The position numbers and the translations under genes are program-made. Shown one piece after another: positions 71 through 6,546 of a DNA stretch of 8,220 nucleotides. This stretch comes from Kiritimatiellales bacterium. GTDB taxonomy: Bacteria > Verrucomicrobiota > Kiritimatiellia > Kiritimatiellales > Pontiellaceae. Where the stretch lies: positions 1 through 8,220 of the forward strand of contig JABDQT010000069.1 of the NCBI GenBank assembly GCA_013042165.1, in the 5' to 3' direction. The notes beneath the pieces were generated by a model. That model searched no databases. It was given only the letters and a program-made list of their open reading frames with translations, and was not told where the DNA came from. Numbering within the stretch: the first letter of the stretch is position 1; the number at the start of each line of letters is the position of its first letter.

Positions 71-94
71 GCCGGGTCGGGGGACCCGGCCTAC
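71..94 (-). repeat. REP unit A (GTAG-headed hairpin, reverse orientation)
   Basis: On the minus strand this reads GTAG followed by a perfect 8-bp stem (GCCGGGTC / GACCCGGC) closed by a CCCC loop, 24 nt in all. The hairpin itself is 71-90 and the complement of GTAG is 91-94. A GTAG tetranucleotide 5' to a palindrome is the known hallmark of REP sequences mobilised by REP-associated tyrosine transposases (RAYT/TnpA-REP, related to IS200/IS605). The unit begins one base after the cmoA stop codon. It could act as a 3'-end stabiliser or a weak terminator; no T-run follows, so a classical intrinsic terminator is not supported. Confidence 0.75.
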
Positions 95-99
95 ACGTT

Positions 100-123
100 G
101 TAGGCCCGCTGCCCTCAGCGGGC
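100..123 (+). repeat. REP unit B (GTAG-headed hairpin, forward orientation)
   Basis: GTAG (100-103) is followed by a perfect 8-bp stem (GCCCGCTG / CAGCGGGC) with a CCCT loop (112-115), 24 nt in all. It faces away from unit A, with the two GTAG ends separated by only 5 nt (95-99). The stem differs from that of unit A although the layout is identical. The stem ends 7 nt before the cmoB start codon at 131, leaving only a GATAAGA leader with no strong Shine-Dalgarno sequence. The hairpin may therefore affect ribosome access to cmoB. The short central palindrome 88-106 (GGCCTACA / TGTAGGCC, loop CGT) overlaps both hairpins by 3 nt and could form instead of them. Confidence 0.75.
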
Positions 124-130
124 GATAAGA

Positions 131-1135
131 ATGAAAATCGACTACACAGAATTTTACGAGCAGCTGAAAAACACACCACTCGAGCCGTGGATCGAGCTGC
201 TGCCGAAACGGATCGCCCATGGCCTGCGCTATGAACGCCACGGTCTTCTGCCTCAATGGGAGGAGGCACTCGCGAAACTTCCAAAGATCGTAGAAGCGAC
301 GCCCTCGTCGCTTTCCCCGCGCACGCAACGCGACGAGGGCGTCGCGTCTACGTTGGTTGATCTGAAAAATGAAGTCAGGGTGGATGGGCAGCCGATCGAC
401 GGACTCGAAGAGTTGCTTAAGGCATTCCATCCGTGGCGCAAGGGGCCGTATCACATCCACGGTGTGGATATCGATACCGAGTGGCGCTCCGACTGGAAGT
501 GGGACCGGGTGCTGCCGCACCTTCAACCGCTCAAAGGCCGCACCATCCTTGATGTCGGCTGCGGCAACGGCTACCACTGCTGGCGCATGGCGGGTGAAGG
601 AGCCAGGCTGGTCGTCGGCGTCGACCCCTCGCCCATGTTTGTCTGCCAGTTTTTCGCCATGAAAAACTTTATCCGGAATCCCCGCGCATGGGTACTGCCG
701 CTCGGCATCGAGGATGTACCGGCAGCGCCGGGGGCCTTCGATACCGTTTTTTCCATGGGCGTGCTCTACCATCGCAAGGATCCGCTGGAGCACATTGAGC
801 AGCTCAAGTCGTTCCTGCAGCCGGGCGGTGAACTGGTCATCGAAACGCTGGTCGTCGATGGTCCTGTGGGCCATGCGCTGACACCCGAAGGACGCTATGC
901 CAAGATGCGCAACGTCTGGTCGATCCCTTCAGTGCCGACCCTCGAACGCTGGCTTCGCGATTGCGGACTGGATAATATCCGAACGGTTGACGTCACCGCG
1001 ACCTCCATCGAGGAGCAGCACTCCACAGAGTGGATGACCTTTGAATCACTTCCCGACTTCCTCGACCCCGACGATCCATCAAGAACCGTCGAAGGCCACC
1101 CCGCCCCCAAACGCGCCGTCATGCTGGCTCAATAA
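131..1135 (+). CDS. cmoB: CmoB, tRNA U34 carboxymethyltransferase (with in-frame REPIN insertion)
   Basis: CmoB transfers the carboxymethyl group of Cx-SAM to 5-hydroxyuridine at position 34 of tRNA, giving cmo5U, which widens wobble decoding. The 334-residue protein matches E. coli CmoB (about 323 residues, recalled from memory) along its length. The N-terminal part has LPKRIA and HGLLPQW. The linker PWRKGP (101-106) and DTEWRSDWKWDRVLPHL (115-131) are conserved. The Rossmann SAM-binding motif ILDVGCGNGYH is at 139-149, with SMGVLYHR at 208-215 and EGHPAPKRAV at the end. The ligand residues known in E. coli correspond to K104, W118, K123, G143, D165, M209, Y213 and R328; all are present at a constant offset of 13. 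Before residue 53 the offset is only 1, so about 12 net residues were added between 53 and 104, where a palindromic REPIN (290-351) encodes residues 54-74. The gene follows cmoA. The start matches the family N-terminus but has only a weak ribosome site. Confidence 0.96.
   Translation: MKIDYTEFYEQLKNTPLEPWIELLPKRIAHGLRYERHGLLPQWEEALAKLPKIVEATPSSLSPRTQRDEGVASTLVDLKNEVRVDGQPIDGLEELLKAFHPWRKGPYHIHGVDIDTEWRSDWKWDRVLPHLQPLKGRTILDVGCGNGYHCWRMAGEGARLVVGVDPSPMFVCQFFAMKNFIRNPRAWVLPLGIEDVPAAPGAFDTVFSMGVLYHRKDPLEHIEQLKSFLQPGGELVIETLVVDGPVGHALTPEGRYAKMRNVWSIPSVPTLERWLRDCGLDNIRTVDVTATSIEEQHSTEWMTFESLPDFLDPDDPSRTVEGHPAPKRAVMLAQ
290..351. repeat. REPIN: inverted pair of REP units inside cmoB
   Basis: Two 24-nt REP units face each other. 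Unit 1 (290-313, forward) is GTAG plus stem AAGCGACG / CGTCGCTT with loop CCCT. Unit 2 (328-351, reverse) reads on the minus strand as GTAG plus stem ACGCGACG / CGTCGCGT with loop CCCT. They are separated by a 14-nt spacer (314-327), so the GTAG ends lie outermost, as in the REPIN arrangement of doublet REPs. Flanking C289 and G352 extend the symmetry by one base. In the cmoB frame, 290-352 is exactly 21 codons (residues 54-74, ATPSS near one end and DEGVAST at the other) with no stop. The next frame is closed at once by the TAG inside GTAG. No transposase is present in the window, so the element would need a RAYT elsewhere. This resembles in principle the Rickettsia palindromic elements found inside genes. 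Confidence 0.8.
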
Positions 1136-3962: not shown

Positions 3963-4910
3963 ATGAAAATTCATCTTTTTTTATTTTTCACGGCCGTGGC
4001 CGCACTAGGTATCGCCGACAACATTGTACTCAAGGGCGGAGCGCAAATCCTCGCCCCGGTCATCAAGCAGACCGACGATGCCAAGGTGGTGGATCTGGGT
4101 TACGACGTGCTGCGTATTCCCGCAAGCGAAATCATTGCAACCTATGATAACGAACCGGTTGAAGGCACGATTCCGGATGACACCAATCGACTCTATTCGG
4201 TTCAGGTGCCTGAACGCATCACAACGTCCGAGGCCTCGACGCTCTACGCCCCGGCCGTTGTACTGGTTAAAACCGCAGCGGGTCTGGGTTCGGGATTTTT
4301 CATCAACAAGGCCGGCTATCTCATCACCAACTTCCATGTGATCGCGGGCGAAAAAAAGATCTCCGTGACCCAGTTCCTGCAGGAGAATCAGATTTTGCGG
4401 AGAGTGGTGCACAAGGATGTGGAAATCGTTGCGGCTGCCCCGTTCCACGATCTGTGTGTGCTTCGGATCAAGAACTTCGATACCGAGATCACACCGGTGG
4501 TATTTGCGCCGGAGGAAGCGCTGCGCATCGGCGAAACCGTTTTCGCGATCGGGAACCCGCTCGGACTGGAGCGCACCGTAACCGAGGGCGTATTGAGCCA
4601 AACCCATCGAAACTTCGGCGGCATCCTGTATCTGCAGGTCGACGCTCCCGTGAACCCCGGCAACTCGGGCGGCCCCCTGTTCAATGCGCGCGGTCAGGTG
4701 ATCGGGGTCATCAATATGGGTGTGCCCAGCATGGAAGGCCTCAACTTCGCGATTCCCGCATTGCATACCAAGTATATCCTCGATCACATCGACGCCTTTG
4801 CCTACGACGCCACCAATCCCGAATCCGGGTTTGTGTATCCCGATCCGCCGCGGCGGCCCGGTAAGTTTTCTTCCGAACAAAAGGAGCAAATCCATGTCCC
4901 GATGCCTTAG
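3963..4910 (+). CDS. Exported HtrA-type (S1C) serine protease without PDZ domain
   Basis: A 315-residue secreted trypsin-fold protease. Residues 1-18 form a signal peptide (KIH, hydrophobic core, ALGIA), so it should act in the periplasm or cell envelope. The catalytic triad reads H125 in TNFHVI, D163 in HDLCVLRI and S235 in NPGNSGGPL. The segments IGNPLGLERTVTEGVLS (196-212) and LQVDAPVNPGNSGGPLF (224-240) are typical of the DegP/HtrA branch. Unlike DegP it has no PDZ domain: after the protease core only a proline-rich tail of about 35 residues remains. Between signal peptide and protease is a small extra module (about 20-65) with the phrase VVDLGYDVLRIPASEI; it looks like a short beta-domain, function unknown. 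No Shine-Dalgarno precedes the ATG (ATAAACCC lies directly upstream), so translation may be SD-independent. The gene overlaps the next by 17 nt and likely leads an operon with it. HtrA homologues do protein quality control or regulated proteolysis; the substrate here is unknown. Confidence 0.9.
   Translation: MKIHLFLFFTAVAALGIADNIVLKGGAQILAPVIKQTDDAKVVDLGYDVLRIPASEIIATYDNEPVEGTIPDDTNRLYSVQVPERITTSEASTLYAPAVVLVKTAAGLGSGFFINKAGYLITNFHVIAGEKKISVTQFLQENQILRRVVHKDVEIVAAAPFHDLCVLRIKNFDTEITPVVFAPEEALRIGETVFAIGNPLGLERTVTEGVLSQTHRNFGGILYLQVDAPVNPGNSGGPLFNARGQVIGVINMGVPSMEGLNFAIPALHTKYILDHIDAFAYDATNPESGFVYPDPPRRPGKFSSEQKEQIHVPMP
4882..4886 (+). promoter_or_regulatory. Ribosome binding site deciding the start of the DUF3352-like gene
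   Basis: AGGAG lies 7 nt before the ATG at 4894, inside the last codons of the protease gene. An in-frame ATG further upstream at 4720 has no ribosome site, and the peptide it would add is the out-of-frame shadow of the protease. The protein starting at 4894 begins with a proper signal peptide. The 4894 start is therefore preferred. Confidence 0.8.
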
Positions 4911-6546
4911 AATCGCCCTCCTGATTTTGATTCCCGTTGTGCCGATCGCTTCGTTCGGCATGGAGCGCACGGAGCTGCTGCCTCCGGAGGCGCAGGCCTA
5001 TGTCCGCATCACCAACACGACCAACTTCTGGACGCGCCTGAAGGCCTCACCGCTTGGGCAGCTCTGGGCGGACCAGCAATTCCAGGACTTTCTCGGCAAT
5101 CCCGATGCTGAAACCTGGCAGGAGCTTTTTTTCGCAAATGAATCGACGGCCGAGGACGAGGTCTTCCTTGAACAGTTGAAGATGTTGAATGGCGAGGTTA
5201 TTCTGGCTTTTGACACAGAACACGACGATCCCTATCTGGTAGCGGCCATCAGCGAGGCCGACTTCCAGCGCAGTCTGGAACTCGATGAAAATCTTGCGGA
5301 CCTGGCGCACGACACGTTCGACATTGTCAGAAGCACCTTCCAGGATGTGGAGATTATCCAGCACATTGATCATCCCGGCGAGCCGAGAGAGACCTCGTCC
5401 TGGCAGACCTTCGTCAACAATACGCTGGTGCTGGGCTATAGCCGTGAATGGATCGAGCAGTGCATTGTAACCTTAAAGAAAGAGACGGTGAAGGAACCCG
5501 AGGGTAATCCAATACTGAACCTCAACATTCCGCTGGCCAAACTGATTCAACATTCGATCGATTCGAAGAAATCCAGATCTCAGGAATCCGCCCTGCTTAC
5601 CGCACTTGGATTGCTCGATATCGAGCGCCTCACTGCGCAGCTCGAACTGAAAGAATCCGAAATGGTGGCGGATAACGTACTGAGCATATCCAATCTGGAA
5701 CGGGGGCTGTTCACGATTCTCGATGTCCAGCCCTCGGAACTTCCCACCGTGACCTTTATTCCTGAAAACATCTCCTCCATCGAGGTGGGTCGCGTCAACC
5801 TGCTCCGCTTCTGGCGGGAAATCCCCAACGTCCTTTTGGCGGCCCAGCCCGGCATGAAGCCGCAATTCGATATGCTGCTGGCTATGATTCAGCAGCAGGC
5901 TGGAATCAATATCGAACTGGATCTGCTGGCCAATATCGGAACCCGGTATATCTCTTTTGCCGTCGCAGAGAATGAGGGACAACGTTCGGTGGTGGCGGTT
6001 GACCTCAAGGATGGGGCGGCCTTCAAAAAAGGGCTCGAAACCGCGATGGCCGCACCGGCCATGCAACCCTATGTGGCCGCCGGAATCGATATTCAGGAGT
6101 TTCTGGATCACACGATATATGTTCAGAAGAACGCCTCTGAGACCGTCCCCAACGGACTGGCGATCTCGGGCGACTACCTGCTGTACGGAGCTCCGGAAGG
6201 ACTTCGTCAGGTGATCCGCTCGATCACAAGCGATGCCGCCGCCAATCAGTCCTTCGAACGTTCTGAACTGGTGAAGGGATTGCGTCGGCATGTGCCGCCG
6301 AGAGCCTTTGCCTACAGCGCCATCGACTGGAAGACAAATATCGATGTCCTCATGGGCGAGCTATCCAAACCTAAAAATCGTGCCCTCATCCAACAGCAAT
6401 GGGCACGCAGCGGCGCCGCTTTGCCTCCGCCGGACTTCAGCAAGCTGCCGCCGGCCGACCATATCGCTTCCTTTTTCAACACGTCATACCAGTATCTCGA
6501 GGCAAGCATCGACGGCCTGCATCAACGGATCATATTAAAATACTGA
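4894..6546 (+). CDS. Exported duplicated-domain protein, DUF3352-like, function unknown
   Basis: A 550-residue protein with an N-terminal signal peptide (MSRCLRIALLILIPVVPIAS). Mature sequence begins with TELLPPEAQAYVRI, then FWTRLKASPLGQLWAD. A pattern of LPP, a Y-x-R/V strand, then a tryptophan helix and a short 'SPLGQL' helix is what I associate with DUF3352-type proteins of Cyanobacteria and PVC bacteria; this link is a resemblance, not a proven match. The protein appears to be an internal duplication. LPPEAQAYVRIT...FWTRL (29-49) recurs as IPENISSIEVGRVNLLRFWREI (289-310), read in two parts. EVILAFDTEH...LVAAISEADFQRSLE (101-129) recurs as RYISFAVAEN...VVAVDLKDGAAFKKGLE (351-382). No catalytic motif is visible. 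It overlaps the protease gene by 17 nt and ends 13 nt before the FG-GAP gene, so the three are probably co-transcribed. Possible roles are a periplasmic structural or chaperone partner of the protease; this is a guess from context. Confidence 0.85.
   Translation: MSRCLRIALLILIPVVPIASFGMERTELLPPEAQAYVRITNTTNFWTRLKASPLGQLWADQQFQDFLGNPDAETWQELFFANESTAEDEVFLEQLKMLNGEVILAFDTEHDDPYLVAAISEADFQRSLELDENLADLAHDTFDIVRSTFQDVEIIQHIDHPGEPRETSSWQTFVNNTLVLGYSREWIEQCIVTLKKETVKEPEGNPILNLNIPLAKLIQHSIDSKKSRSQESALLTALGLLDIERLTAQLELKESEMVADNVLSISNLERGLFTILDVQPSELPTVTFIPENISSIEVGRVNLLRFWREIPNVLLAAQPGMKPQFDMLLAMIQQQAGINIELDLLANIGTRYISFAVAENEGQRSVVAVDLKDGAAFKKGLETAMAAPAMQPYVAAGIDIQEFLDHTIYVQKNASETVPNGLAISGDYLLYGAPEGLRQVIRSITSDAAANQSFERSELVKGLRRHVPPRAFAYSAIDWKTNIDVLMGELSKPKNRALIQQQWARSGAALPPPDFSKLPPADHIASFFNTSYQYLEASIDGLHQRIILKY

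Follow-up and report, generated by a model that had tools for sequence, protein, structure and literature searches.

The palindromic element in cmoB

How did a palindromic repeat of a mobile type come to lie in the reading frame of a conserved gene, and how do the gene and the element persist together? In the window (the whole 8,220-nucleotide stretch of DNA that we analyzed), cmoB occupies positions 131 to 1,135 of the plus strand and encodes a 334-residue tRNA U34 carboxymethyltransferase, as judged by TIGR00452 (444 bits, cut-off of 275) and by PDB entry 4qnu (E = 6.8e-112). A 62-bp REPIN composed of two opposed GTAG REP units lies in frame at positions 290 to 351 (plus strand) and codes for CmoB residues 54 to 74; the original prediction had described these hairpin units and residues correctly, and its end point of 352 was one base over. 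The left unit GTAGAAGCGACGCCCTCGTCGC (positions 290 to 311, plus strand) and the right unit GTAGACGCGACGCCCTCGTCGC (positions 330 to 351, minus strand) are exact pattern matches, and the frame reads V-E-A-T-P-S-S-L across the former and, on the plus strand, R-D-E-G-V-A-S across the latter. The ends of the element, 5′ GTAG and 3′ CTAC, are those of two opposed GTAG units. Folded as single-stranded DNA, the REPIN formed a long hairpin of −27.4 kcal/mol, compared with −13.35 (sd 2.18) for shuffled sequences (z = −6.4), and 0 of 200 shuffles were as stable. The sequence possesses what defines a REPIN, namely opposed GTAG-ended REP units, a hairpin, and multiple genome copies. The notion that the REP sequence is specially open in all frames was rejected: four of its six frames are open, versus a shuffle mean of 3.7. 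By eye, two more GTAG/CTAC-type palindromes of different sequence, GCCGGGTCGGGGGACCCGGC and GCCCGCTGCCCTCAGCGGGC, are present just 5′ of cmoB (window positions 71 to 118), and positions 1,217 to 2,524 encode a secreted-looking protein with a PEP-CTERM-like end.

Alignment with Escherichia coli CmoB (4qnu) gave an offset of +1 before the element (window residue 3 pairs with residue 2) and +13 after it (106 pairs with 93, and 333 with 320), as claimed earlier; the description of the downstream offset as constant was slightly overstated because a pair of one-residue indels brings it to +12 near residues 183 to 200. At this site the window CmoB has 39 residues versus 21. The gene is thus longer by a net 54 nt, less than the 62 bp of the element, and a few bases of the host gene were probably deleted or overwritten. 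In the AF2 model of the window CmoB, residues 55 to 77 have pLDDT values below 50, which agrees with the surface loop that had been proposed, but residues 1 to 36 are also below 50 and the mean for the whole model is 65.9, making this a weak test. The two AF2 models that we used are modest in quality (the other has a mean pLDDT of 66.7) and derive from shallow alignments.

A search of the host genome for further copies, suggested by the original prediction, was positive. The REP pattern GTAGAMGCGACGNCCYCGTCGC, allowing up to two mismatches, has 21 matches in the genome of the window (G000), 20 in G003, 45 in G015, and 0 in G012, and the reversed-pattern control gave 0 in all four. With at most one mismatch, the pattern is present in 17 of the 29 GTDB family genomes. 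Judged by frame length and by eye, in the window's own genome the copies in cmoB and priA are the ones that clearly lie within a long open reading frame (ORF) of a recognizable host, and some of the others overlap ORFs of 150 to 270 residues. The letters of the right unit GTAGACGCGACGCCCTCGTCGC recur as an exact pattern match at positions 5,254 to 5,275 of contig C315 (G000), inside a RAYT that is nested in priA. The expectation that REP spread adds protein sequence in this lineage was borne out, with in-frame REPs also found in a leucyl-tRNA synthetase, an MrpA-like subunit, and an RHS/YD protein. The first of these is a single REP arm within the synthetase (L255, G003). Two species have the second at the C-terminal end of this MrpA-like antiporter subunit (L264 in G003; L263 in G015, identified by eye), where the REP is read in another frame than in cmoB, and the third lies within an RHS/YD-repeat protein (L248, G015).

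States of the cmoB and priA sites among relatives

The 29 family genomes contributed 28 CmoB rows (G010 was omitted since its fragment lies beyond the site). An insert was present at the cmoB codon in five (G000, G003, G015, G024, and G013) and absent from 23; the reading of G007 is ambiguous in part, and two extra residues occur in G016. Of 119 aligned CmoB proteins (from the best 120 of 7,999), 94 have a segment of 21 to 23 residues and 25 have a longer one. The REP-peptide pattern matched 18 of the 25 longer segments, with the remaining seven being degenerate or uncertain, and it matched one of the 94 short segments. The clean absence of the insert from relatives was thus as anticipated, we did not find the same residues in palindrome-free relatives, and the element does have other copies in the genome. 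A CmoB named as that of Pontiella desulfatans (P0123) carries the REPIN; the window's genome, of the same GTDB genus, is probably a Pontiella too. At the same codon, a whole RAYT with REPs is present in frame in G013 and in the database protein P0194 (572 residues), the remaining one of the 120, and the G013 CmoB-RAYT has a database counterpart, P0081 (596 residues). As a whole, the original interpretation was supported in part: this is a multicopy, in-frame REP dimer in an otherwise conserved cmoB, but the list of precedents was incomplete and the nested RAYTs were missed.

The insert is scattered over the cmoB phylogeny. The 28-row tree requires five changes, at least three of which are forced by starred branches, and an AU test (p = 0.0026, with the long branch of G007 included) rejected a single ancestral insertion inherited as one clade. 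On the 119-row tree the insert needs 20 changes, compared with a mean of 23 for shuffled labels, and only two are forced by starred branches; the poor branch support of this tree makes the one-clade test weak.

The priA gene exhibited a similar range of states, which we read in 19 of the 29 family genomes. Frame length was misleading here: an open frame of 940 residues or more proved unreliable as a marker of a RAYT in PriA, failing for G003, G092, G050, and G032, and the states were therefore read from sequence. A RAYT is present in priA of nine genomes (G000, G004, G013, G015, G017, G019, G025, G027, and G028), only REP sequence in four (G003, G009, G016, and G021, by eye), and the site is empty in five (G001, G002, G005, G012, and G020). 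These counts exclude the matches in G006 and G007, and eight of the 29 genomes have no PriA match. In the window's own genome, the priA RAYT (L092, contig C315) has the same REP at its right edge (positions 4,809 to 4,830) and internally (the copy at 5,254 to 5,275 described above), with a degenerate left edge, and L108 (G015, contig C54) carries a REP in frame at the same place within the RAYT coding sequence. Thus, for cmoB and priA alike, three states (empty, REP-only, and RAYT with REPs) are shown across relatives.

In G010, the nineteenth genome, the priA sequences were discordant. Contig C91 (L110) starts inside a RAYT and continues into PriA, whereas contig C76 (L238) passes from the PriA N-terminus through a REP remnant to the next PriA residues without a RAYT, and the two have a 30-mer in common beyond the RAYT; they may represent two alleles or an assembly break at a repeat. 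This disagreement, the fragmentation of the window's genome into 329 contigs, and the tendency of REPs to break assemblies raise the question of whether repeats were collapsed into host genes during metagenome assembly or binning. We consider such an artefact very improbable, since a RAYT also resides in priA of two records without a MAG label, Pontiella sulfatireligans F21(T) (2.76-Mb contig) and B12227, the REPIN is in CmoB of P. desulfatans, and open frames have been kept in many species.

It is conceivable that the window REPIN landed once and neutrally in a tolerant loop, with no relation to the RAYTs at the same codon, and that the shared site reflects only the tolerance of CmoB. The variable length of this CmoB segment among relatives fits that account, as does the argument for neutral insertion in linkers and loops in the available portion of Di Nocera 2013 (PMC3733652). 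It is unlikely, in our judgment, given that a RAYT with REPs occupies the same cmoB codon in two relatives, that priA has the same three states, and that the inserts of G000 and G003 are alike even between the REP arms, with one difference by eye. We favor the explanation that the REPIN was moved by a RAYT and forms a predicted loop of about 20 residues that CmoB tolerates, at one of a few sites with three states, and we regard this as likely. In our reading, the site can be empty or can hold a REPIN or a RAYT, and the window REPIN represents its state without a RAYT.

RAYTs nested in host genes

The extent of such nesting was assessed by a Y1_Tnp search of the 29 family genomes, which gave many matches in very long open frames; 20 + 20 regions among the matches listed were read, and the counts are a lower bound. 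At least 27 RAYTs are bracketed by host sequence in one open frame: nine in PriA, seven in a B12/radical-SAM protein (at two sites), five in the CCA-adding enzyme, three in XseA, two in MvaD, and one in CmoB. The nested RAYTs come with in-frame REP-like peptides, and Pfam and NCBIfam scans of representatives identified host domains beside Y1_Tnp or REP_Tyr_transpos. Three more loci fall outside this count: L286 (radical-SAM) and L276 (CCA) are cut off by the end of their contigs, and the G010 priA contigs disagree. RAYTs are fused to the C-terminal end of two TatD-type nucleases and one Fic-like protein, the latter named by eye (L271 in G026, L282 in G021, and L094:932-2677 in G023). A long frame by itself was rejected as a sign of this RAYT group; L279 to L281, L283 to L285, L287, and L293 to L295 are other Y1 types or weak matches.

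We also queried a protein database with residues 140 to 350 of the window genome's own PriA-RAYT, limiting candidates to about 530 to 1,690 residues, and 1,025 of 1,552 candidates passed. In 112 of the best 120 of the 1,025, the RAYT is flanked on each side by at least 90 residues. The hosts indicated by precomputed Pfam lists, and in part by scans, are PriA, RarA, DinG/YoaA, ClpB, MvaD, MurC, AlaRS, DUF1156 and N6-methyltransferases, HsdR-like helicases, and others; for hosts without a DNA-level reading, nesting is deduced from flank lengths and domain lists. In the AlaRS protein P0023, whose record is partial, only 42 residues precede the RAYT. By precomputed Pfam, many long-flanked RAYTs are in DNA methyltransferases and HsdR-like helicases, including P0005, P0031, P0033, P0035, P0036, P0039 to P0041, and others.

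All 141 RAYT domains that we compared retain the HUH motif, and 126 have the catalytic tyrosine in Y..NP by a simple pattern that the other 15 lack. The NCBIfam model NF047646 (cut-off of 80 bits) scored most of the scanned RAYT-bearing proteins at 58.5 to 78.5 bits and the standalone L288 at 79.1, and among them only AlaRS P0023 (132.9) and L272 (80.3) passed. Sequence similarity of the RAYT to PDB entries is weak (best E = 0.011; TnpAREP 4er8, 0.13), and the fold-search matches listed for the CmoB-RAYT model, a list that one domain can fill, are methyltransferases or related enzymes. Values of dN/dS for the RAYT in PriA were 0.034 to 0.112 in 10 of 13 pairs, with three saturated and most dS values above 1, making them rough; those for the PriA helicase part were close, at 0.023 to 0.103 (11 pairs). 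These ratios indicate that the RAYTs in PriA are under purifying selection.

No internal start backed by a Shine-Dalgarno (SD) sequence was found in 20 informative nested loci (L110 was left out because its contig begins there), which points to synthesis of the RAYT within the host protein; at 11 of the 20, no start codon occurs in the 40 codons before the RAYT core. Each family genome with any PriA match has one, and the CmoB query returned one full-strength CmoB per family genome plus fragments and distant methyltransferases; the nested form therefore appears to be the only full copy of these two host genes.

A different proposal is that the insert is removed from the mRNA or protein, by IStron-like or intein-like splicing or by ribosome bypass, such that the enzyme never carries it. 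Pairing of the REP arms in RNA could be envisaged from the palindrome. Several results make removal quite improbable: one open frame joins insert and host in the bracketed loci, the RAYT in PriA is under apparent purifying selection, 11 sources gave 0 Rfam matches at the gathering threshold and no group I intron RNA, and no Hint or intein domain was among the Pfam matches (E ≤ 1e-3) of 10 nested proteins. The choice of loci by long frames is biased toward open ones; eight short-frame loci were also checked. Five of them (L288, L290, L291, L292, and L296) are RAYTs of the group and three (L293 to L295) are weak matches of another type; tblastn with the flanks of the first-read hosts, a set without XseA and TatD, detected no host piece beside any of the eight.

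The history of the nested RAYTs was examined with a 141-row RAYT tree, on which host labels need 26 changes versus 91.8 in shuffles; hosts therefore tend to keep their RAYT. The RarA RAYTs form one clade, the CmoB-RAYT of G013 lies inside the MvaD-RAYT group, and the Pontiella PriA-RAYTs, although they occupy a single priA site, fall into two distinct groups with support. The latter two placements mean that new captures occur, including at used sites. They also bear on whether recombination between species, by swapping cmoB and priA alleles, gave rise to the distribution of inserts in place of repeated transposition. Exchange would accord with the near-random spread of the insert on the cmoB trees and with the near identity of the G000 and G003 inserts between their arms (by eye), but a single-origin exchange does not give two RAYT groups at one priA site, and it does not sit well with a CmoB-RAYT that groups with MvaD-RAYTs. 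We view allele exchange as a possible but doubtful account of the distribution.

REP abundance was compared with RAYT presence. Five genomes in which a RAYT of this REP's group was read contain 7 to 73 REP copies, versus 0 to 41 in the other 24 (p = 0.004), and copy number is also higher in the five genomes with the cmoB insert (p = 0.019), with clear exceptions. G014 (41 copies), G027 (30), G017 (24), and G021 (21) are rich in REPs although no RAYT of this REP's group was read in them, so the pairing of REP with RAYT is loose.

Under the RAYT-moved explanation, a RAYT like the priA-nested one of the same genome likely moved the window REPIN, with insertion at the DNA level by action on single-stranded REP. 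Survival would be limited to insertions that keep the frame and fall in tolerant loops or linkers. The whole ORF would then be translated, with the host enzyme folding around the insert. A nested RAYT would be made only within the host protein, and carriage by a needed gene would aid its persistence. The REPINs at these sites could be independent landings or RAYT-loaded units that remain after RAYT loss.

Relation to known elements and biological meaning

The window REPIN is of an already published kind. A 2013 study (PMC3733652) described in-frame GTAG REP dimers that contribute 20 to 30 residues, many of them within genes for DNA repair, from Opitutus terrae and other species, and in the text of that paper available to us such intragenic dimers are most numerous in O. 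terrae, itself a verrucomicrobium. The original prediction had named the Rickettsia palindromic elements as the main precedent; they are the older one, and the 2013 dimers need to be added. In the same portion of PMC3733652, no whole RAYT inside a host gene and no series of empty, REP-only, and RAYT sites is described. Of greater interest, a whole transposase can occupy the cmoB site and a few further sites as well.

Similarities to other systems help to place these elements. To our knowledge, no transposase is associated with the Rickettsia palindromic elements. As described in part of PMC10969869, those elements are likewise in-frame palindromic repeats in conserved genes, a resemblance in description. 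The REPIN/RAYT system, or REPtron (also the subject of PMC3116915), shares the opposed GTAG pairs, the HUH single-tyrosine transposase, and the REP flanks, according to portions of PMC6006769 and PMC8049555; RAYTs are described there as single-copy genes, whereas here many lie within host ORFs. From an excerpt of PMC8266576, TnpAREP cuts single-stranded REP substrates and GTAG has a role, and this cutting is the movement step that we assume for the window REPIN. Inteins and WHO/HO homing elements (PMC7282813, in part) are likewise selfish, tied to host genes, and recurrent at one site, but we found no splicing domain in the nested RAYTs, and the RAYT remains in the predicted product. The IStrons treated in the consulted section of PMC4227781 are also gene insertions made harmless, in their case by RNA self-splicing; no intron family match was obtained here (Rfam, 11 sources). 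CSB-PGBD3 of primates similarly fuses a transposase to a host repair-related protein, with alternative splicing yielding the fusion beside the normal protein (PMC3459987, partial text). The RAYT described here is nested, unlike CSB-PGBD3, and we saw no additional full-length host gene.

Among the papers listed by our searches of an open-licence library, we found no title or abstract start naming a RAYT nested in a host gene. The words "fusion," "in-frame," "inside," and "coding sequence" are absent from the first RAYT paper (PMC2817692), and in PMC3390384 the term in-frame is used of deletions. Long TnpA proteins were set aside as fusions or annotation errors in the relevant excerpt of PMC6006769. 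RAYTs are termed domesticated transposases of unknown exact function in the available text of PMC8049555, whose 2021 model of REPIN persistence has a REPIN copied into a gene destroy that gene. This assumption stands against the in-frame REPINs and RAYTs in housekeeping genes for which we saw no second full copy.

A further-reaching reading is that RAYTs have become permanent nested domains in needed enzymes (PriA, RarA, XseA, the CCA-adding enzyme, MvaD, MurC, and CmoB), resembling inteins without splicing, and that fixed in-frame sites move cyclically among the empty, REPIN, and RAYT states, with the window REPIN as one stage of the cycle. We put this forward tentatively, as a serious possibility about which we are almost evenly divided. 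If true, out-of-frame loss of the element would cost the host its gene, and fusions to PriA, RarA, and DinG would bring a single-strand-specific transposase to replication forks. Mobile DNA in this family likely survives by turning into protein segments that the host tolerates. Carriage and expression by a host gene offer a specific explanation for RAYT persistence that can be put to the test, and the same elements provide a route for mobile DNA to add protein sequence, along with natural fusions in which a transposase is nested in a replication protein.
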